Assembly: GCA_016794595.1 (NCBI GenBank)
Contig: JAEUJN010000082.1
Coordinates: 1 to 64,000 of the forward strand
Origin: Kineosporiaceae bacterium
Lineage (GTDB): Bacteria > Actinomycetota > Actinomycetes > Actinomycetales > Kineosporiaceae
Length of the DNA: 64,000 nt
Reading direction: 5' to 3'
Each line of letters starts with the position of its first letter. The stretch's first letter is position 1. Below, piece after piece: positions 30,826-39,755 of the stretch. The position numbers were made by a program, and so were the translations under genes. The notes beneath the pieces are model-generated. The model had not been told where the DNA came from. It saw only the letters and a list, made by a program, of their open reading frames with translations, and ran no database searches.

Positions 30826-31104
30826 TCAGCCCCTGGCCGCCGACGGCCTCCGGCGCCGGGGCCGGCCGAAGCCGAAACGGACCCCGAACGCCCGCAGCAC
30901 GGCCCACATCACCAGCCAGAGGATGCTGCCCGCGACCAGGAACTGCACGGTGTGCTCCAGCCCGACGATCGCCGGCTGATCCAGCCCGGGCTCCATCGGC
31001 CGGGGAGTGGGGCTGCCCACCCGGTCGGCGACGAACCAGAGCACCAGCGCGACCACCGACGAGACGCCCAGGACGGCGAGCGCCCGCCCGACGGCCCGGA
31101 TCAC
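30826..31104 (-). CDS. Small two-helix membrane protein
   Basis: Membrane protein of 92 residues from a GTG overlapping the upstream stop (GTGA, 31101-31104). Two hydrophobic helices are seen, ALAVLGVSSVVALVLWFVA (about 7-25) and FLVAGSILWLVMWAVL (about 54-69), with a basic C-terminal tail (GRPRRRRPSAARG). It is co-translated with a DUF4405-like protein and may be its partner. No family recognised. Confidence 0.7.
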   Translation of the reverse strand: MIRAVGRALAVLGVSSVVALVLWFVADRVGSPTPRPMEPGLDQPAIVGLEHTVQFLVAGSILWLVMWAVLRAFGVRFGFGRPRRRRPSAARG

Positions 31105-31601
31105 CGGGCCCTGCCCAGCAGGCCACGGACCTGGGCCAGGATCCAGTCCAGGTGCGAGAGGACGTGGACCGCGAGCACCACCAGCAGCAACATCGACGAC
31201 AGCGCGTGCACCCGCATCCACAACGTGGTCTGCTGCACCTCGATCCCGATCGTCGGCAGGGCAGCCTCGCTGATCACCAACCCGGACAGCATGACCGCGA
31301 TCGCCAGGGTCCACATGGCCAGGTTGACCAGGCGGTTCACCTGGTTCTGCGCCCGGACCCGCAGGCGTTGCAGATGGCGGACCACCCAGGTCCAGTGCAT
31401 CACCACATGGGCGAGCAGGACGGCGATGATCCCCACCGCGATCCACTCGTGCAGGGGGACCCCGGTGGCCCCCGGAACCGCGGCGATCATCCAGGCGGCG
31501 AACAGGCCCAGGTCGACCCAGAACTTGCGGCGGGCCTCCCGGCCGGACCGCGGGGTGTCACCCGGCTCGGCTGCCCGTTCGTCCACGTCGAGTGTGCTCA
31601 T
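31101..31601 (-). CDS. DUF4405/cytochrome b561-like four-helix membrane protein
   Basis: Integral membrane protein of 166 residues with four helices: GLFAAWMIAAVPGATGV, WIAVGIIAVLLAHVVMHWTW, LAMWTLAIAVMLSGLVISEA and ALSSMLLLVVLAVHVLSHLDW. Histidines in or beside the helices (LLAHVVMHW, VHALSS, LAVHVLSH) could ligate haem, as in b561-like proteins. The ATG at 31601 is preferred to an upstream in-frame start at 31652 without coding character. It forms a two-gene unit with the next small protein. Confidence 0.75.
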   Translation of the reverse strand: MSTLDVDERAAEPGDTPRSGREARRKFWVDLGLFAAWMIAAVPGATGVPLHEWIAVGIIAVLLAHVVMHWTWVVRHLQRLRVRAQNQVNRLVNLAMWTLAIAVMLSGLVISEAALPTIGIEVQQTTLWMRVHALSSMLLLVVLAVHVLSHLDWILAQVRGLLGRAR

Positions 31602-31698
31602 GGAGCACACCTTGACGCATCGGGCGAGCCCGCCACATCTCGAACCCCGCAAACCACCTGGAGCCCGTCGACCCTGCCCGAGGCGCCCGCGGCCTCAC

Positions 31699-32187
31699 TC
31701 AGGCCAGCCGGACCTGCTCGAGGGCCGCCGAGCGCAGCCCCGACCACTGGTCATCCACCCTCAGGGTGGCCAGGGTGCAGGGCGGGAACCGCCGCTCGAG
31801 GACCTCCAGCGCACCGGGCTCGGAGGTCGCGGGGTCGGCCAGGTCGTGAGCCAGCGCGGGCAGCCCGGGGGCATGCCCGACGACGACCAGCGCACGGACA
31901 GACTCGGACACCTGGCGGATCTGCTCGAGGATCTCCCCGGCCCCGGCGTTGTAGAGCTCGGGGCACACCCGGACGGCGCAACCCGGCCGCGCGGCGTCCA
32001 GGGTCTGCCGGGCCCGGACCGCCGAGGAGCACAGGGCGAGGTCCACCCCGACCCCCGCTGCCCGCAGGTGATCACCCAGGGCCGCGGCCTGTGCCAGACC
32101 GAGCGGGGTCAGCCGCCGGTCGTGGTCCCCCGCGCCGGGACGGACGTGCTCGGTGTCGGCGTGCCGCAGGACCAGCAGGGTTCGCAC
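31699..32187 (-). CDS. SixA-type histidine phosphatase
   Basis: Branch-2-like small phosphoglycerate-mutase-fold phosphatase, 162 residues, acting on phosphohistidine or another phosphoester. The catalytic RHG-type motif is at the N-terminus (LVLRHADTEH), the second Arg in LCSSAVRARQTLDA, and the second His in VVVGHAPGLPALA. Full length for SixA. It begins 27 bases after the Ehr operon ends and may be its last gene. Substrate unknown. Confidence 0.88.
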   Translation of the reverse strand: MRTLLVLRHADTEHVRPGAGDHDRRLTPLGLAQAAALGDHLRAAGVGVDLALCSSAVRARQTLDAARPGCAVRVCPELYNAGAGEILEQIRQVSESVRALVVVGHAPGLPALAHDLADPATSEPGALEVLERRFPPCTLATLRVDDQWSGLRSAALEQVRLA

Positions 32188-32214: not shown

Positions 32215-33786
32215 TCAGAGGTCGTTGCCCGCGTAGGACTGGTTGAAGCTCTTGTTGGCCAGGGGGAAGTCGGGGACGATCGTGTCCGCCAGCGCCACCG
32301 GCAGGGCCGGCCAGTTCACGAACGAGGGGTCGACGACCCTGACCCTGGCCAGTCGCCCGGCGTCGTCCAGCTCGACCCGGTGACAGATGGTCCCCCGCCA
32401 CCCCTCCACCAGGCCCACCCCGGACCGGGGCCGGCCGAGCCATCCCAGCGGCCCGGTCCCGGCCAGGCCCGGCACCTGGTCGGCCCCGGGGAGGGTCCAG
32501 GCGGGGCTCGGCTCGGGCAGTTCGCGGGTGAGCAGATCGCGAATGACCGCCGCACTCACCGCACACTCGCGCATCCGCACCCGGTAGCGGGCCAGCACGT
32601 CGCCGCCGGGCTCGGTGACCACGCTGAAGGCCGGGCCGAGGTCCAGCTGCGGGTGGTCGCGGCGGGCGTCGACGTCCAGCCCGCTCGCTCGGGCGACGTA
32701 GCCGAGGGTCCCCAGCTGGCTCGCCTGCTCGGCGCTCAGCCTGGCCGTGCCGGTGAACCGGTCGAGCACGACCGCGTGGCCCAGGGTCACCTCCGCGAGT
32801 TCGGCGATCTCCTCGGCGATCTCGGCGAGCTCGCGATCGGTGGGCAGCCGGCGTACCCGGGCACCACCCAGGTACAGGCCCCCGCGCAACAGCCGATGCC
32901 CGGTGACGGATCGATTGAGCCGTAACAGCTTCTCCCGCAGGCGTTGTGCATGGACGCCGGCGATGCCGAAGGCGACGTCGGTACCCAGGGCACCGAGGTC
33001 GGCCACGTGGTTGTGCAGGCGCTCGAGTTCGAGCAGCAGCGCGCGCAGCCGGCGCGCGGGCAGGTCCACCTCGATCCCGGCGGCGTCCTCGACCGCGCTC
33101 AGCAGCGCGTGGGCGTGCCCCACGGCCGTGTCGCCGCTGATCCGTTCGGCCAGTGCGACGGCGTGCTCGACATCGGCGCCCTCGAAGAGCTTCTCGACCC
33201 CGCGGTGGACGAACCACAGCCGGGCCTTCATCCGCAGGATGGTCTCCCCCACGACGGAGAACCGGAAGTGGCCGGGCTCGATCAGGCCGGCGTGCACCGG
33301 CCCCACCGGGATCTCGTACACGCCGTCGCCGGCGACCTCGAGGAAGGGGAACGAGCCGACATCCTCGGCGAAGTCCGGCACCGATCCCTCGTCGTGCCCC
33401 TCGTCGTGTCCCTCGCCACTTCCCCCGTCACGTCTACCGGTGCGGCGCATCGGGTACCAGTCCTGCGGCCAGTGACCGTGCATCACCAGCCGGCGAGGCA
33501 TCGGGTGGCCGACCGGCTCGATCCCGAACATGTCCCGCAGCTCGCGCTCGAACCTGCCCCCCGTGTACGACAGGTGGGCGATCGAGGGCAGCCGGGGGTC
33601 GAGCACGGGCACCGAGACCGAGAGCTCGCGGACCACCGATGCCCGGGTGAGGACGAAGACCACCCGGAACGCGGTGGGATCGTGGTGACCGGCCACCAGG
33701 GCCAGCCGGTAGCCGCCGTCCAGCAGTTCGGCCGCCGCGTCCACCAGCTCGGAGCGGTCGACCAGCCGGTGCACCGCGCGGCTCAT
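32215..33786 (-). CDS. Ehr large subunit: NuoC-NuoD/HycE-like fusion lacking Ni ligands
   Basis: Peripheral subunit, 523 residues. The N-terminal NuoC-like part (about 1-125: HLSYTGGRFERELRDMFGIEPVGHP) joins, via an acidic His/Asp/Glu linker (about 118-140), a NuoD/NiFe-large-subunit-like part. Group 4 hydrogenases place CxxC after RGVEK and at the C-terminus; here these are RISGDTAVGHA and KSFNQSYAGNDL, with no cysteines. It thus cannot bind a NiFe centre and belongs to the energy-converting-hydrogenase-related (Ehr) group. The mycobacterial counterpart, from memory, is Rv0087. Overlaps the upstream gene by four bases. Confidence 0.88.
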   Translation of the reverse strand: MSRAVHRLVDRSELVDAAAELLDGGYRLALVAGHHDPTAFRVVFVLTRASVVRELSVSVPVLDPRLPSIAHLSYTGGRFERELRDMFGIEPVGHPMPRRLVMHGHWPQDWYPMRRTGRRDGGSGEGHDEGHDEGSVPDFAEDVGSFPFLEVAGDGVYEIPVGPVHAGLIEPGHFRFSVVGETILRMKARLWFVHRGVEKLFEGADVEHAVALAERISGDTAVGHAHALLSAVEDAAGIEVDLPARRLRALLLELERLHNHVADLGALGTDVAFGIAGVHAQRLREKLLRLNRSVTGHRLLRGGLYLGGARVRRLPTDRELAEIAEEIAELAEVTLGHAVVLDRFTGTARLSAEQASQLGTLGYVARASGLDVDARRDHPQLDLGPAFSVVTEPGGDVLARYRVRMRECAVSAAVIRDLLTRELPEPSPAWTLPGADQVPGLAGTGPLGWLGRPRSGVGLVEGWRGTICHRVELDDAGRLARVRVVDPSFVNWPALPVALADTIVPDFPLANKSFNQSYAGNDL

Positions 33787-35237
33787 CCCGCACCGGCCAC
33801 GGCGTGGACGGCGCGGGCGATCGGCCCCTGCTCGGGATCCAGCACCAGCGGGACGATGCAGATCACGGCCAGGGCGAGCAGGATCGGCGCCTGCGGTCCG
33901 GTCCGCGCGGCAGGAGCCCGGCCGGCACCGGGGCCCGGCTCGCCGGCCGGACCCAGACTCATCGCGACCACGGCCTGCACCAGTCCGACGAACACCAGCA
34001 GGATCAGCCCGACCGCGACCAGCGCCACCCAGCCCAGCCCCGCCCGCCACGTCGCCAGCAGGATGCCCACCTCGGAGAAGAAGAGCGAGAACGGCGGGAA
34101 CCCGAGCAGGGCGGCCATCCCGGCCAGGAAGGGCCGGCCGATGCCCGGGTGGGTGACCAGCAGCCCGCGCACGTCGGCGATCCGGGTCGACCCGTACCGG
34201 TGCAGGATCCTGCCCGCCAGCACGAAGACCCCGGCCTTGGCCAGGCCGTGACCCAGCACGTGCAGCAGCACCGCCGCCGTGGCCAGCGAGCCACCGACCG
34301 CCAGCCCCAGGGCGATGATGCCCATGTGCTCGATGCTGGAATAGGCCAGCAGCCGCTTGTAGTCACGTTGGCGCAACACCAGCACGCCGGCGATGGCCAG
34401 CGAGCCCAGCGCCCCGACGATCAGCAGCCAGCGCATGAACTGCGGCCCGATCACCGAGTCCGCGATCACCCGCACGCGCAGGACCGCGTAGCCGGCCACC
34501 GCGAGCAACACCCCGGACATCAGCCCCGAGACCGGTGCCGGCGCCTGACCGTGGGCATCGGGCAGCCAGCTGTGCATCGGGAACAGCCCGGCCTTGGTGG
34601 CGAACCCGAGCACGGCCAGCGCGGTGGCGGCCCGTACCAGGTCCGGGTCCAGGCCGGGCACGGCGCCCTGGCTGAGCAACACCCAGGACAGCGTCGGGCG
34701 GCCGGCGGTGCGGGTGGCGGCGTAGAGCAGCACGATGCCCAGGAAGGCGATGGCGATCCCGACCGACCCGAGGATCACGTACTTCCACGCCGCCTCGACG
34801 GCGGCCCGGCTGCGCCGGTGCCCCACCAGGAACGCGGTCGCGATCGTGGTGAACTCCACCGCGACCCAGAGCACGCCGAGGTCGTCCGCGAGCACCGCCA
34901 GGCTCATGGCGGCCAGGAACAGCGTGACCAGCGTGGCGTAGCTGGCCCCGTGCGGGTCGTCGTCCTCGCCCAGGCCACCCCAGGTCGCGGTGACCCCGAC
35001 GGCTCCGATCACCGTGAGCAGGAAGGCTGACAGCGAATCGGCCCGCAGCAGTCCCCCCGCGGTGACCGGCGCCGCCGTCCCTGCGGTCGTGCCGGCGACC
35101 AGCGCGAGCCCACAGGCGAGCGCGCCCCCGCTGGCAGCGACCGGGGCCCAGCGGGTCAGTGACTCCTCGCGCCGCCAGCCGACCGCCCCGGCCAGCGCCA
35201 GGGGCAGCAGCAGTGCGAGCCAGATCAGCACGCTCAT
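33783..35237 (-). CDS. Ehr proton-channel subunit, HyfF/NuoN-like
   Basis: Antiporter-like subunit of 484 residues and about 14 helices. Conserved complex I features include AAVEAAWKYVILGSVGIAIAF (key Lys), LGFATKAGLFPMHSWLPDAH (Lys and the HSWLPDAH motif) and KRLLAYSSIEHMGIIALGL. It should move H+ or Na+ across the membrane. Start overlaps the HyfE-like stop (35234-35237). Confidence 0.9.
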   Translation of the reverse strand: MSVLIWLALLLPLALAGAVGWRREESLTRWAPVAASGGALACGLALVAGTTAGTAAPVTAGGLLRADSLSAFLLTVIGAVGVTATWGGLGEDDDPHGASYATLVTLFLAAMSLAVLADDLGVLWVAVEFTTIATAFLVGHRRSRAAVEAAWKYVILGSVGIAIAFLGIVLLYAATRTAGRPTLSWVLLSQGAVPGLDPDLVRAATALAVLGFATKAGLFPMHSWLPDAHGQAPAPVSGLMSGVLLAVAGYAVLRVRVIADSVIGPQFMRWLLIVGALGSLAIAGVLVLRQRDYKRLLAYSSIEHMGIIALGLAVGGSLATAAVLLHVLGHGLAKAGVFVLAGRILHRYGSTRIADVRGLLVTHPGIGRPFLAGMAALLGFPPFSLFFSEVGILLATWRAGLGWVALVAVGLILLVFVGLVQAVVAMSLGPAGEPGPGAGRAPAARTGPQAPILLALAVICIVPLVLDPEQGPIARAVHAVAGAG

Positions 35238-35896
35238 TCCTCGCGCAGCTCCCTCAGCTCGTCCAGATCGGTGTCCCCGAAGACCGAGCGCATCCGCGTG
35301 GTCAGCACGGCCAGGATCAGCACCACCAGCAGGACGTCCAGCGAGACGCCGAGCTCGACCACCAAGGGGACGCCACCGGCCGTGAGCAGGGCCACGGTCG
35401 CAATGCCGTTGTCCATCATCACGAACCCGATCAGCTGCGACATCGCCCGCCGGCGCGAGGCGATCGTGAGCAGCCCGATCAACACCAGGCTCACCCCGAC
35501 CGGCACCACGCGCAGGGCCGGGTCGTCCCCGATCTCGACCAGCGGGGCGCTGACCACGTAGGCCAGCCCGGCGAGCGCGACGCAGGCCAGCAGGGCCGCG
35601 GTCGGGTTCAGCAGCGGCGCCTCCTCCCGCTCGCCCGCGGCGAGCTGCATGGCCCGCCGGACTGCCCCGGGCAGCACCACGGCCTTGAGGACCAGCACCA
35701 GGACGGCGACCAGCAGCAGGGCGCCCTCACCCGCGTGCAGGGCCATCACCGCGACCAGGACCGCCAACGCCACCCCCTGGAGCGCGAGCAGGCGGACGGC
35801 GGCGATCAGCGAGCGGCGCCAGACCACGAGCACGGCCGAGAGCAGCAGGACGCCGGCCGCGGTCCCGACCAGCTGGGCGTAGGTCGTGGCCGGCAT
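35234..35896 (-). CDS. Ehr membrane subunit, HyfE-like
   Basis: Integral membrane subunit of 220 residues and about seven helices, resembling HyfE and the NuoK/MrpC end of complex I relatives: MSQLIGFVMMDNGIATVALL is the NuoK-like segment, here with MDN where Glu is usual. The ATG at 35896 shares one base with the upstream stop (TGATG). The mycobacterial counterpart, from memory, is Rv0085 (hycP). Confidence 0.87.
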   Translation of the reverse strand: MPATTYAQLVGTAAGVLLLSAVLVVWRRSLIAAVRLLALQGVALAVLVAVMALHAGEGALLLVAVLVLVLKAVVLPGAVRRAMQLAAGEREEAPLLNPTAALLACVALAGLAYVVSAPLVEIGDDPALRVVPVGVSLVLIGLLTIASRRRAMSQLIGFVMMDNGIATVALLTAGGVPLVVELGVSLDVLLVVLILAVLTTRMRSVFGDTDLDELRELREE

Positions 35897-36846
35897 CAGG
35901 TCACCAGGTAGGAGGTCGTCACGGCGAGGAAGGCCAGGGCGAAGGACCCGGCGAGCAGTTCCGGCACCCGGAACAGCCGCACCTTGGCCAGGAAGACCTC
36001 GGCCGCCCCCAGCACCACGGCCGACAGAGCGAGCTTGGCCAGCAGGGTGAGGATGCCGACGAGCAGGGCGCCGGGCGAGGCGGTGGTGGCCTGGCCCCAG
36101 GGCACCAGCAGGTTGCCGACCAGGCCCACCAGGGCCGCCAGCCGCAGCCACGACCCCAGCTCGACCCAGGCCAGGTCGCGGCCGGACGACTCGAGCACCA
36201 TCGCCTCGTGCACCATGGTCAGCTCGAGGTGAGTGGCCGGGTTGTCCACCGGCAGCCGGCCGGTCTCGGCCAGCACGGCGATGCCCAGGGCGACCACGGC
36301 CATCAGGCTGGCCGGGGAGGCGATGGTCGAGGGAGCCGCCAGGCGCTCGTTCATGATCTGCGACAGGGCCGAACTGCCGGCCGGGATCGAGACCGCGAAC
36401 ACCGCCACCAGGACCGTCGGTTCGACCAGCGCGGCGATCGTCATGTGCCGGCTGGACCCCATGCCGCCGAACGCGGTCCCGCTGTCCAGCCCGAGCACCG
36501 CCAGCGCGACGGTGCCCACCAGCAGCACCGAGACCACGACGAACAGGTCGCCCGGCAGCCCGGGCAGCGAGACCGTGCCGACCAGTGGCACCTGGGCGCA
36601 GACCATCAGGCTGGTGGCGAGCAGCACCACGGGGGCGGCCACCTGGAGCCGGGTCCCCTCGGCCTGCACCGGCTCTTTCAGCAGCAGCTTGCGCAGGTCG
36701 CGCCAGGGCTGGAGCACCCCGGCGCCGGCCCGGCCCTCGACCCACGCCCGGGACTGGCGGGCCAGGCCCACCACGAGGGGCGCGGCCGCCACCATGACCA
36801 CGAGCTGGACGGTGACCGCAGCGACCGCGCTCAGCCAGGCGATCAC
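35896..36846 (-). CDS. Ehr membrane subunit, NuoH/HycD-like
   Basis: Eight-helix subunit linking the soluble arm to the ion channels, 316 residues. NuoH hallmarks are visible: RAGAGVLQPWRDLRKLL at the first loop, GMGSSRHMTIAALVEPTVL, AETGRLPVDNPATHLELTM, and HEAMVLESSG with the conserved Glu. The GTG start overlaps the upstream stop by four bases (36843-36846). The mycobacterial counterpart, from memory, is Rv0084 (hycD). Confidence 0.92.
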   Translation of the reverse strand: MIAWLSAVAAVTVQLVVMVAAAPLVVGLARQSRAWVEGRAGAGVLQPWRDLRKLLLKEPVQAEGTRLQVAAPVVLLATSLMVCAQVPLVGTVSLPGLPGDLFVVVSVLLVGTVALAVLGLDSGTAFGGMGSSRHMTIAALVEPTVLVAVFAVSIPAGSSALSQIMNERLAAPSTIASPASLMAVVALGIAVLAETGRLPVDNPATHLELTMVHEAMVLESSGRDLAWVELGSWLRLAALVGLVGNLLVPWGQATTASPGALLVGILTLLAKLALSAVVLGAAEVFLAKVRLFRVPELLAGSFALAFLAVTTSYLVT

Positions 36847-38852
36847 CGGGACACCGCCGCGAGCACGGCGATCAGGGCCGCCAGGGAGTAGGTCAGGTAG
36901 CGGTGGATGCTGCCGTTCTGGACCCCGCGGGCCAGCTCCGCCGTCCGGTTGAGCACAGCCTGCAGCGGGCGGTAGAGCGCCTGCTCGACCACGTCCTCGA
37001 GCTGCTGGTGGAAGCGGACCTCCCGGACGACGAACCACGCCCGGTCGGTTCGGGTGACCGCGACGTCCCGGGTGGGCCGCAGCGCATCCCCGAACACCCG
37101 GACCAGGGGCTCGGCGTAGGAGGTGGCGGTGTACTCCATCCGCGGGCTGGTCCGCACCCCACCGCAACCCCAGGGCAGGGTGGTGCGCCGCCGCGGCCGG
37201 CGACGCTCGAGCAGGATGGCGGGTCCGGCCACCAGGGCCGTGAGCACGAGCACGCCGCCGGTCAGGCGCACGGGCTCGAGCCCGGCGTCGACGGCGGCCA
37301 GGTGCAGGCCCGCGGTGGAGGTGGCCAGGATTCCCCGGGCATCGACGGTGCCGGCCACCGCGACCGCGAGCGGCCCGGCGGCGACGCCGAGGAGCACCAG
37401 CACGCCCGCCCCGGCGAGCATGGCGGTCACCATGGGGGCCGGCGCCTCCCGCGCCGTGGCCACGGCCTCGGATCGGCCGCGGGCCAGGAACGCCACCCCG
37501 ACCGCCTTGACCATGGTGAGCAGGGCCAGGCCGGCCGTCAGGGCCACCGCGGCCAGGGCGAGCGGCATGACCACCGCGACCACTCGGCCCTCCCCGCGGG
37601 CGCCGTGGATGATCGCCTGCAGCAGCACCCACTCGCTGACGAAGCCGGCCGTCACCGGCAGGGCCGCGGCCCCCAGCCCGCCGAGGGCGAACGCGGTCGC
37701 CGTCCAGGGCATGCGCGGCAGCAACCCACCGAGGCGGTCCAGATCGCGCTCCCCGGTGGCATGGACCACCGACCCGGCACCGAGGAACAGCGTGGTCTTG
37801 AACGCCGCGTGGCTGACCGCGAGCATCAGGCAGGCAACCAGGGCCACGTCCGCCGGGCCGGTCTCACCGTCCGCCCGCAGCAGCACCGCCAGACCGAGCG
37901 CGATCGCCATCAGCCCACTGTTCTCGGTGGTCGAGTACCCGAGCAGGCGCTTGACGTCGGTGGCGACCGAGGCCTGCAGGATCCCGTACAGGGCCGAGGC
38001 GATCCCGAGGGCCACCAGCGCCAGGGCCCACCACTGCGGCGGCTCCGGCATCAGGCGGACGGCGATCAGGACCAGGCCGTAGATGCCGGTGCCCGCCATC
38101 GCCCCGCTCATCACGGCCGAGACATGGCTGGGCGCCTCCGGGTGCGCCCGGGGCAGCCAGACGTGCAGCGGCACCAGGCCCGCCTTGGCGGCGAAGCCGA
38201 TCGTCAACAGGGCCAGCGCCCCGTGGTATCGACCACCCTGCTGCCGGTGGCTCTCCACTGCCCGCGCCAGCTCGTCGAGCGTCGTCCCGCCGCTCTCGGC
38301 GACGAGCACGGCGAACCCGGCGAGCAGGGCCAGGAAGCCGAGGTGGGTCATCACCGCGTACCACCGGGTGGCCGAGAGCACCTGGGGACGGTGCTCGTGA
38401 TCGGCGAGCAAGAGCACGGTCGAGGTGATCGCCATCGCCTCCCACACCAGCAGGAAGGAGACCACGTCGGCGGCGGCGGGCACGAGCTGCACCGAGGGCA
38501 GGAACGCGACGAAGGCCGCCCAGGAGGTGGCCGAGGACGACGGGCCGTGCGCGTAGCCGATCCCGAACAGCGCCGCGAGCAGGCCGACCCCACCCGCGAT
38601 GGCCATGAACAGGCCGCCGAGACGATCCGGCGCCAGGGTCAGGGGCGCCAGCGGCAGCGCGGTGGACAGGGTGAGCCGGCCCTCGGTGCCGGCCATCGCG
38701 GCCAGTCCGGTCACCAGGCCGGCCGCCGCCGCGGTCGCCGCGAGCGACCCGGCCCAGCGGGCGCGCCGCTCGGGCGCGGCCGCCAGTGCGACCAGCACCC
38801 CGGCGGCGGCAAGGGCCAGGTGCAGGCGCAGGCCGAGGTCGACTGCCGTCAT
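36843..38852 (-). CDS. Ehr proton-channel subunit, HyfB/NuoL-like
   Basis: Largest membrane subunit, 669 residues with about 16 helices. Antiporter signatures include WEAMAITSTVLLLADHEH (key Glu), TIGFAAKAGLVPLHVWLPRAH (Lys and HVWLPRAH), KRLLGYSTTENSGLMAIAL, and SHAAFKTTLFLGAGSVVHAT. The C-terminal part (WGCGGVRTSPRMEYTATSY) is typical of HyfB-like proteins. Ten bases separate it from the NuoB-like gene. Confidence 0.92.
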   Translation of the reverse strand: MTAVDLGLRLHLALAAAGVLVALAAAPERRARWAGSLAATAAAAGLVTGLAAMAGTEGRLTLSTALPLAPLTLAPDRLGGLFMAIAGGVGLLAALFGIGYAHGPSSSATSWAAFVAFLPSVQLVPAAADVVSFLLVWEAMAITSTVLLLADHEHRPQVLSATRWYAVMTHLGFLALLAGFAVLVAESGGTTLDELARAVESHRQQGGRYHGALALLTIGFAAKAGLVPLHVWLPRAHPEAPSHVSAVMSGAMAGTGIYGLVLIAVRLMPEPPQWWALALVALGIASALYGILQASVATDVKRLLGYSTTENSGLMAIALGLAVLLRADGETGPADVALVACLMLAVSHAAFKTTLFLGAGSVVHATGERDLDRLGGLLPRMPWTATAFALGGLGAAALPVTAGFVSEWVLLQAIIHGARGEGRVVAVVMPLALAAVALTAGLALLTMVKAVGVAFLARGRSEAVATAREAPAPMVTAMLAGAGVLVLLGVAAGPLAVAVAGTVDARGILATSTAGLHLAAVDAGLEPVRLTGGVLVLTALVAGPAILLERRRPRRRTTLPWGCGGVRTSPRMEYTATSYAEPLVRVFGDALRPTRDVAVTRTDRAWFVVREVRFHQQLEDVVEQALYRPLQAVLNRTAELARGVQNGSIHRYLTYSLAALIAVLAAVSR

Positions 38853-38862
38853 CGAGTCTCGC

Positions 38863-39417
38863 TCATCGGCCGGTGACCCGGCGCAGCGCGGCCACGATCT
38901 GCTCCGGCTCGGGCGGGCAGCCGCGGACCTCCAGGTCGACGTCGACCACCGAGGATGCCGGGCCCACCACCGCGTGCCCGCGGGCGAACAGCCCGCAGTC
39001 CACTGCGCAGTCGCCGACGGCCAGCACCACCCGGGGGCGCGGCGTGGCCTCGACGGTGCGCCGCAGGGGCTCGGCCATGTTGCGGGTCACCACTCCGGTG
39101 ACCAGGACGGCGTCCGCGTGCCGCGGGGAGGCGACCAGCCGCGCCCCGTAGCGCTCGGCGTCGTACACCGGCCCGAAGGCGGCGCCCACCTCGATCTCAC
39201 AGCCGTTGCAGGACCCGGCGTCGACGTGGCGTACCTGCACGCTGCCCCGCAGTTCGGACGGCAGCTCGGACGGCAGGGCCCGACCGTCAGTGGGTGGGTC
39301 GGTGGGTGGGTCAGCGGGCAGGGGGGCGGGCAGAGTGATGGGCAGGGGGGCGGGCAGGGCGGGCTCGGCGATCCGGCCGACGCGGCGGATCAGCCGGGCC
39401 AGGCGCAGGGCACTCAT
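38863..39417 (-). CDS. Ehr small subunit, NuoB/HycG-like [4Fe-4S] protein
   Basis: Carries the cluster next to the active-site pocket, 184 residues. All four cluster Cys are visible: GSCNGCEIEV (two), VGDCAVDCGLF, and GCPPEPEQIV. The N-terminus has an unusual Pro-rich insert (about 20-56: LPAPLPITLPAPLPA, PPTDPPTD, SELPSELRG) encoded by short direct repeats. Start overlaps the ArsR stop (ATGA, 39414-39417). No NuoI-like ferredoxin gene follows, so electron entry differs from complex I or formate hydrogenlyase. Confidence 0.9.
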   Translation of the reverse strand: MSALRLARLIRRVGRIAEPALPAPLPITLPAPLPADPPTDPPTDGRALPSELPSELRGSVQVRHVDAGSCNGCEIEVGAAFGPVYDAERYGARLVASPRHADAVLVTGVVTRNMAEPLRRTVEATPRPRVVLAVGDCAVDCGLFARGHAVVGPASSVVDVDLEVRGCPPEPEQIVAALRRVTGR

Positions 39418-39755
39418 GCCGACTCGTGCAGCGAGTCGCGCAGGGCCGCCTGCAAGGCCCCTTGACCGGTGACCTGGTCGAGCAGCACCTCGCGCGCCGT
39501 CCGCAGCAGGTCCCGCACCAGCGGCAGGGCCAGGGTGTAGGTCACCTCGCCGGCGGCGCGCTGCTGGGAGACCAATCCGGCGCGGCGCAACACGGCCAGC
39601 TGCTGGGAGAGGTTGCTCTGCTCGATCTCGATCTGCTCCAGCAGCTCGTGGACGGCATGGTCGCGCTCGGCGAGCAACTCCAGAATCCGGATCCGCGCGG
39701 GGTGGCCCAGGGTGCGGAAGAACTCGGCCTTGACCTGGTACAGCGGCTGGGTCAC
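39414..39755 (-). CDS. ArsR-family regulator of the Ehr operon (Rv0081-like)
   Basis: Winged-helix repressor of 113 residues from a GTG. The sequence begins MTQPLYQVKAEFFRTLGHPA and continues RIRILELLAERDHAVHELLE, then SNLSQQLAVLRRAGLV (recognition helix). It lacks the usual ArsR metal Cys motif. From memory it matches mycobacterial Rv0081, a hypoxia-linked regulator that heads the same set of genes. It is co-translated with the NuoB-like gene and divergent from serC. Confidence 0.88.
   Translation of the reverse strand: MTQPLYQVKAEFFRTLGHPARIRILELLAERDHAVHELLEQIEIEQSNLSQQLAVLRRAGLVSQQRAAGEVTYTLALPLVRDLLRTAREVLLDQVTGQGALQAALRDSLHESA

Follow-up and report, generated by a model that had tools for sequence, protein, structure and literature searches.

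What can a relative of respiratory complex I do when it has neither a nickel site nor a ferredoxin subunit of its own? The question is raised by an operon at 32215-39755 on the minus strand of the stretch analyzed here (the window), 64,000 nucleotides of contig JAEUJN010000082.1 from a Kineosporiaceae bacterium (GCA_016794595.1). Its gene content and missing ligands identify this operon as encoding an Ehr complex, as earlier work has called such assemblies (PMC6349859; PMC7304191). A preliminary description of the locus had assumed a built-in redox reaction with a donor and an acceptor yet to be named. We find no support for this: at least two independent lineages of relatives, in which the NuoB subunit has lost its cluster ligands, still have the complete machine under purifying selection, so that the question becomes whether the complex is an oxidoreductase at all. 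Since these cluster-less relatives retain all six genes under selection, the Ehr machine probably need not be an electron-transfer enzyme. We therefore lean, with a confidence a little below even, toward a core activity that is non-redox and coupled to the proton-motive force (PMF) or to ions, the cluster being an optional part. The argument for a non-redox activity is strong for the cluster-less lineages; for the form in the window, we infer it.

A large subunit without nickel ligands or the quinone tyrosine

The seven open reading frames (ORFs) of the operon are complete and tightly packed in the order ArsR, NuoB, HyfB, NuoH, HyfE, HyfF and NuoCD-like, with 4-bp overlaps at the ArsR/NuoB, HyfE/HyfF and HyfF/NuoCD junctions and at most ~10 bp at the others. 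Pfam and NCBIfam models identify them as ArsR/SmtB, Oxidored_q6, two Proton_antipo_M, NADHdh, hydrogenase-4 HyfE and Complex1_30kDa plus 49kDa proteins (Table 1), in line with the earlier account of six subunits tightly coupled behind an ArsR gene. In the large subunit, alignment places S-T-S-G at the four nickel-ligand positions, all of which are replaced (ERISGDTAVGHA; NKSFNQSYAGNDL), and the protein terminates in ...NDL with a C-terminal extension of length 0, the cleaved tail of the Hyc/Hyf type being absent. The contention that this subunit cannot hold NiFe, made from RISGDTAVGHA and the like standing in for CxxC, is thereby upheld. Where complex I has its quinone tyrosine, the window protein has Gly219, which is invariant in all members checked, and the histidine loop (EPGHFRF) is of the hydrogenase type and not the quinone-binding histidine of complex I. 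A model of the subunit (predicted local distance difference test, pLDDT, 86.8) has E. coli HycE as its nearest fold (7z0s_E, template-modeling score, TM, 0.83). The NuoH-like subunit displays a family-specific motif, DNPATHLEL, in which E. coli E216 and E218 are replaced by A and H, respectively.

There is no two-cluster ferredoxin in the operon or beside it in the window, again as first described, and the host genome encodes NuoI-type proteins at just two places, its normal nuo operon (C4:67304) and a second nuo set that is split (C4:17753). The latter set (G000:C4:10000-29900, L234) comprises, in this order, nuoB, nuoC and nuoH, TetR and ABC transporter genes, and nuoI and nuoJ, with no nuoD; an orphan NuoD, conventional and of the kind seen in complex I, stands apart from any other nuo genes on another contig (G000:C26, L005:9573-11348). 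The host further carries two other loci with NiFe-type small subunits. The preliminary description had allowed that a NuoI encoded elsewhere might overturn its account. That prospect is weakened, since no NuoI above the cut-off was found in 15/15 Patescibacteria or in the 4/4 genomes tested from the Microbacteriaceae lineage that is sister to the window, and with none beside the operon either, we set aside a hidden NuoI partner. Among the relatives read, five loci (L097, L110, L113, L206 and L207) do encode a two-cluster ferredoxin, each time fused to the N terminus of NuoB and in no other form. UbiA is also missing from 12/15 of the Patescibacteria genomes, a group reported to have no complete electron transport chains (PMC7507113).

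A widespread family outside complex I and the hydrogenases

A scan of GTDB genomes recovered at least 580 relatives. The six genes stay together, with the same motifs and without a separate NuoI gene, in ~90 loci representing more than 12 phyla, a recurrence far beyond chance. The loci read come from Actinomycetota, Rokubacteria, Nitrospirota, Acidobacteriota, Verrucomicrobiota, Omnitrophota, Chloroflexota, Planctomycetota, Pseudomonadota, Deinococcota and several Patescibacteria groups; the operon is also found on plasmids, and two main gene orders prevail, with NuoB either first or last. The distribution is patchy, a NuoB match being present in 9/118 near relatives. Large-subunit trees, built with quick methods as were all trees here, place the window operon outside both complex I and the Hyc/Hyf hydrogenases; together with the subunits and the missing nickel ligands, this supports the Ehr-type identity first proposed. 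A single clade of nickel-less members is not rejected by the approximately unbiased (AU) test (p 0.225), and the wider clade also holds members with four cysteines (CCCC). There are related six-gene operons whose large subunit has four nickel cysteines and no C-terminal tail (L110, L113, L208-L212), with a ferredoxin domain fused to NuoB in L110 and L113 and no NuoI in the locus in L208-L212; these are possibly unstudied nickel-binding types.

Repeated loss of the NuoB cluster

The window NuoB aligns with all four cluster cysteines in place, as the preliminary description had noted. The same ligands are lost in all 15 Patescibacteria genomes with an Ehr-type NuoB, a sample drawn from loci already collected and from 380 genomes searched in the phylum to which L104 belongs. 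Two to four ligands are gone in each, the fourth always among them, and the ligand sites read TCDD, DCDD, DAEN, TEDD, SEGD, TEGD or DADN (the partial contig G485 starts DC). Other NuoB homologs from this search (L162, L163) are of a different type and read CCCC. In Microbacteriaceae, the ligands decay by steps, to CCCS or CCCN and then to GCAS or ACAS, and the large-subunit tree unites this cluster-losing lineage with the window in one group (support 95). Forcing the cluster-less Patescibacteria and Microbacteriaceae into one clade costs 266 log units and is rejected by the AU test (p 6e-42, long branches removed), so the two losses are independent; ligand loss accounts for 4 state changes on the tree. 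Three loci reading CCPS (L203, L204, L216), whose third cysteine is possibly misaligned (AACGPACGG), are excluded from the counts. In a further set (L051, L190, L198-L200, L202), the N2 ligands are gone from NuoB and an N-terminal ferredoxin-like extension is present (CP...CxxCxxC, half-ferredoxin-like). Because these loci are set apart, the strictly cofactor-free forms are the main clade of Patescibacteria and Microbacteriaceae such as L077 and L196, whose complexes would have no redox center. The model of a cluster-less Patescibacteria NuoB (pLDDT 91.9) has an ordinary NuoB fold, 2.0 A from Mbh J, and a substitute metal site is not favored, as the replacing residues vary among genomes. An earlier account of NuoB cluster loss was not found in the open-access literature.

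Two loci have peculiarities of their own. On plasmid pMESIL01 of Allomeiothermus silvanus (L051), NuoB has two matches, one at 21491-22294 with 100% identity to the query copy, which suggests a duplicated operon; and a genome placed in the same phylum as the window (L201, G239) carries a Patescibacteria-like TCDD complex, by transfer or bin contamination.

The machine remains intact without the cluster

All six subunits are present in every cluster-less locus not cut by a contig end. The ratio of nonsynonymous to synonymous substitution rates (dN/dS) of NuoB is 0.04-0.15 in cluster-less genome pairs, similar to that of its partner subunits, in pairs that are mostly from Microbacteriaceae with one from Patescibacteria, in which dS was not estimable for 4/6 subunits. 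The many genomes, intact ORFs and low dN/dS rule out sequencing error or pseudogenes as the source of the cysteine loss. A HyfB split into two overlapping ORFs was seen in one Falkowbacteria locus (L181), by a frameshift or an assembly error.

The channel residues are retained alongside. Equivalents of E. coli NuoL E144, K229, H338 and position 399 (Glu here), of NuoM E144, K234 and H348, and of NuoH E157 and E220 do not vary, apart from single exceptions at most, whether or not the cluster is present. The large-subunit pocket (H166, H174, G219, D220, R257, H261, Y519, D523) is likewise conserved to the same degree with the cluster as without it. As the pocket and channels are equally constrained without the cluster, the function that constrains them is independent of it. 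A residue of the large subunit that does change is R216, which is Gln or Ala in 9/9 Microbacteriaceae of the cluster-losing lineage and which we take to be the counterpart of the arginine adjoining the N2 cluster in complex I.

Genomic linkage to ATP synthase

In 6/15 Patescibacteria, versus 0/77 other loci, F1Fo ATP synthase genes lie next to the operon or are split by it (p ~7e-6 by simple count, uncorrected for shared descent). The operon follows directly after atpA-G-D-C in Magasanikbacteria, after atpB-E-F-H-A-G-D-C in Falkowbacteria and, across an 870-bp gap, after the atp genes of G565; it lies between atpC and atpD in Daviesbacteria and beside atp genes in Vogelbacteria and G493. No earlier report of this linkage for Ehr was found in the open-access literature. 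The one Patescibacteria ATP synthase c-subunit found (L228) has no Na+ motif, and Na+ is unsupported there. ArsR adjoins the operon in 44/92 loci. Elsewhere than in Patescibacteria, a SulP-type transporter is the commonest flanking family after ArsR (6/103 flanking proteins), the tested SulP neighbors scoring below every named SulP cut-off. Only these two recur among the flanking genes, and no recurrent electron-donor gene was found beside the operon.

Features of the operon and its neighbors

The positions of the genes and principal motifs are listed in Table 1. The nearest solved structure to the window ArsR is Rv0081 (6jmi, E 4.6e-28, by PDB comparison), and the gene order in published tables of M. 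tuberculosis Rv0081-Rv0087 (PMC6901956) matches that of the window, which together support the equivalence first proposed for the two loci. Just downstream on the same strand are genes for a DUF4405/cytochrome b561-like membrane protein (31101-31652) and a SixA-like phosphatase (31699-32187).

Table 1. Genes and motifs of the Ehr-type operon in the window
Feature	Position	Strand	Evidence
ArsR/SmtB-family regulator, Rv0081-like, no Cys	39414..39755	-	NF033788 E 3e-22
NuoB-like subunit	38863..39417	-	Oxidored_q6 E 1.6e-29; four-Cys alignment
NuoB N2-type cluster ligands C70, C73, C137, C167	~39208-39210, 39199-39201, 39007-39009, 38917-38919	-	
HyfB/NuoL-like antiporter subunit	36843..38852	-	NF005086 E 2e-149; E138, K223, H348, K352, E407 family-invariant
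NuoH/HycD-like subunit	35896..36852	-	NADHdh E 4.5e-33
HyfE-like membrane subunit, C-terminal half NuoK-like	35234..35896	-	NF008556 E 1.5e-21; weak Oxidored_q2 match
HyfF/NuoM,N-like antiporter subunit	33783..35237	-	NF005044 E 1e-93; E128, K215, H330, K334 family-invariant
NuoCD/HyfG-like large subunit without Ni ligands	32215..33786	-	Complex1_30kDa and 49kDa
ERISGDT motif at hydrogenase RxCGxC / complex I quinone-Tyr site	33127..33147	-	
C-terminal NKSFNQSYAGNDL at hydrogenase DPCxxC site; protein stops here, no cleavable tail	32218..32256	-	

Comparison with known systems

The Ehr complexes already described (PMC6349859; PMC7304191) have the same group-4-like NuoB, NuoCD, NuoH and antiporter subunits without nickel ligands as the window, and large subunits from the candidate phyla radiation (CPR) were reported to miss the metal-binding cysteines and to be monophyletic (Jaffe et al. 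2020, PMC7304191); as searched here, that paper discusses neither NuoB cluster loss nor ATP-synthase linkage, both of which are documented here. M. tuberculosis Rv0081-Rv0087 (hycD, hycP, hycQ, hycE) shares with the window its gene order and an Rv0081-like ArsR; the literature treats it as a putative formate hydrogenlyase (FHL) or [NiFe] hydrogenase, whereas the related mycobacterial loci in our set have no nickel ligand at all. With E. coli Hyc/Hyf (FHL-1, hydrogenase 4), the window has in common the subunit folds and the HyfB/HyfE/HyfF order, but not equivalents of HyfA, HyfD, HyfH and HyfJ, the nickel site or the tail, and the large subunits differ, at 29-32% identity. The features that define a group 4 [NiFe] hydrogenase or FHL, namely four nickel cysteines, a two-cluster HycF/HyfH ferredoxin and a cleaved tail, are not found in it. 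Respiratory complex I shares the NuoB/CD/H and antiporter core and the channel residues; unlike complex I, the window operon has no NuoE/F/G/I, a Gly for the quinone Tyr and replacements of NuoH E216/E218.

Two systems related to the membrane arm of complex I, Mrp and DAB2, are non-redox. The Glu/Lys/His pathway of the antiporter-like subunits is shared with Mrp antiporters, which consist of MrpA-G without the NuoH/B/D present in the window. DAB2 is a PMF-driven, non-redox CO2 hydratase of the NuoL type (PMC13144422), whose cap is carbonic-anhydrase-like (DabA, with a Zn site) as against NuoB/CD in the window operon, which encodes no DabA-like subunit. Its precedent establishes that non-redox machines exist in the complex I superfamily.

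Weighing the explanations

We propose that the Ehr type is a six-subunit membrane machine of the complex I superfamily, in which HyfB, HyfF, HyfE and NuoH are predicted to form an ion-translocating membrane arm and NuoB and NuoCD would cap it on the cytoplasmic side, a conserved polar pocket occupying the former NiFe/quinone site. The core activity of the machine, which the window form may share, would most likely be to exchange cations for protons or to carry out some other PMF-coupled step, and the cap pocket, as a gate or a small catalytic site, could control it through a bound ligand or proton. The single [4Fe-4S] cluster predicted in the window and mycobacterial NuoB would be an optional add-on, such as a redox or oxygen sensor or a modulatory point of electron entry. 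Several observations weigh against a non-redox core. CCCC is kept by the window NuoB and by 61/68 NuoB of the first survey, so that selection usually maintains a cluster, and the cluster-less lineages may have changed function. The CCCS forms might still bind a cluster, the N-terminal extension of the set apart above may hold one, and the extension-bearing L190 belongs to Patescibacteria. The six cases of ATP-synthase linkage may all descend from a single arrangement.

The main rival, a redox-driven ion pump, is itself quite possible. A soluble ferredoxin, flavodoxin or dehydrogenase would dock on NuoB in place of NuoI and pass electrons through the N2-type cluster to an acceptor in the NuoB/NuoCD cleft, driving pumping, and the cluster-less lineages would be secondarily re-purposed. 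The retention of four cysteines in most members, including the window, and the ferredoxin fusions to NuoB, two of them (L110, L113) alongside a nickel-type large subunit, are consistent with it, as are the formate dehydrogenase (FDH) partner proposed for Ehr of Margulisbacteria and Saganbacteria (PMC6349859) and the hypoxia-linked regulators of the M. tuberculosis operon (PMC5484546). The want of a NuoI or a recurrent donor gene, the invariant Gly at the quinone-Tyr position and the indifference of pocket constraint to the cluster speak the other way. PMF-driven chemistry in the cap, with the antiporter arm admitting protons that drive acid-base chemistry such as hydration in the NuoCD pocket, as in the DAB CO2 hydratase, would suit the cluster-independent, invariant His/Asp/Arg/Tyr pocket, the DAB2 precedent (PMC13144422) and the SulP neighbors, a family that includes bicarbonate transporters, low as the tested ones score. 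We consider it unlikely, since a carbonic-anhydrase-like Zn site and a DUF2309 subunit are both missing, the pocket is devoid of Cys and of any proven metal, and no substrate is assigned to the SulP neighbors. Decay of a vestigial operon, to which the stepwise cluster loss and patchy distribution might point, is very improbable given intact ORFs, conservation across more than 12 phyla and strong purifying selection on the six subunits; wherever dN/dS could be estimated for a pair, it lay well under 0.3, which contradicts decay. The frequent annotation of such operons as FHL or hydrogenase 4 draws on HycE as closest structure and on hydrogenase-4 models as top matches of the antiporter subunits. 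We reject it as scarcely credible, with the four nickel ligands, the tail and HycB/HycF subunits gone and the host's only HycI-type protease encoded beside another hydrogenase at C39.

Implications

Our broader proposal, slightly more tentative than that of a non-redox core, is that members of the six-subunit Ehr family, those of the window and M. tuberculosis among them, are in essence ion machines coupled to the PMF and equipped with a ligand pocket, which lineages such as Patescibacteria may run free of redox cofactors beside ATP synthase. If true, the Patescibacteria form would be a redox-free relative of complex I that keeps the NuoB/NuoCD/NuoH coupling module. How the peripheral arm of complex I is coupled to ion pumping is a long-standing question, and a relative without any known redox center would allow coupling to be studied apart from electron transfer. 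The reading of Rv0081-Rv0087, described as a formate hydrogenlyase, would change accordingly, and Patescibacteria, lacking complete electron transport chains, would gain a candidate partner for their ATP synthase.

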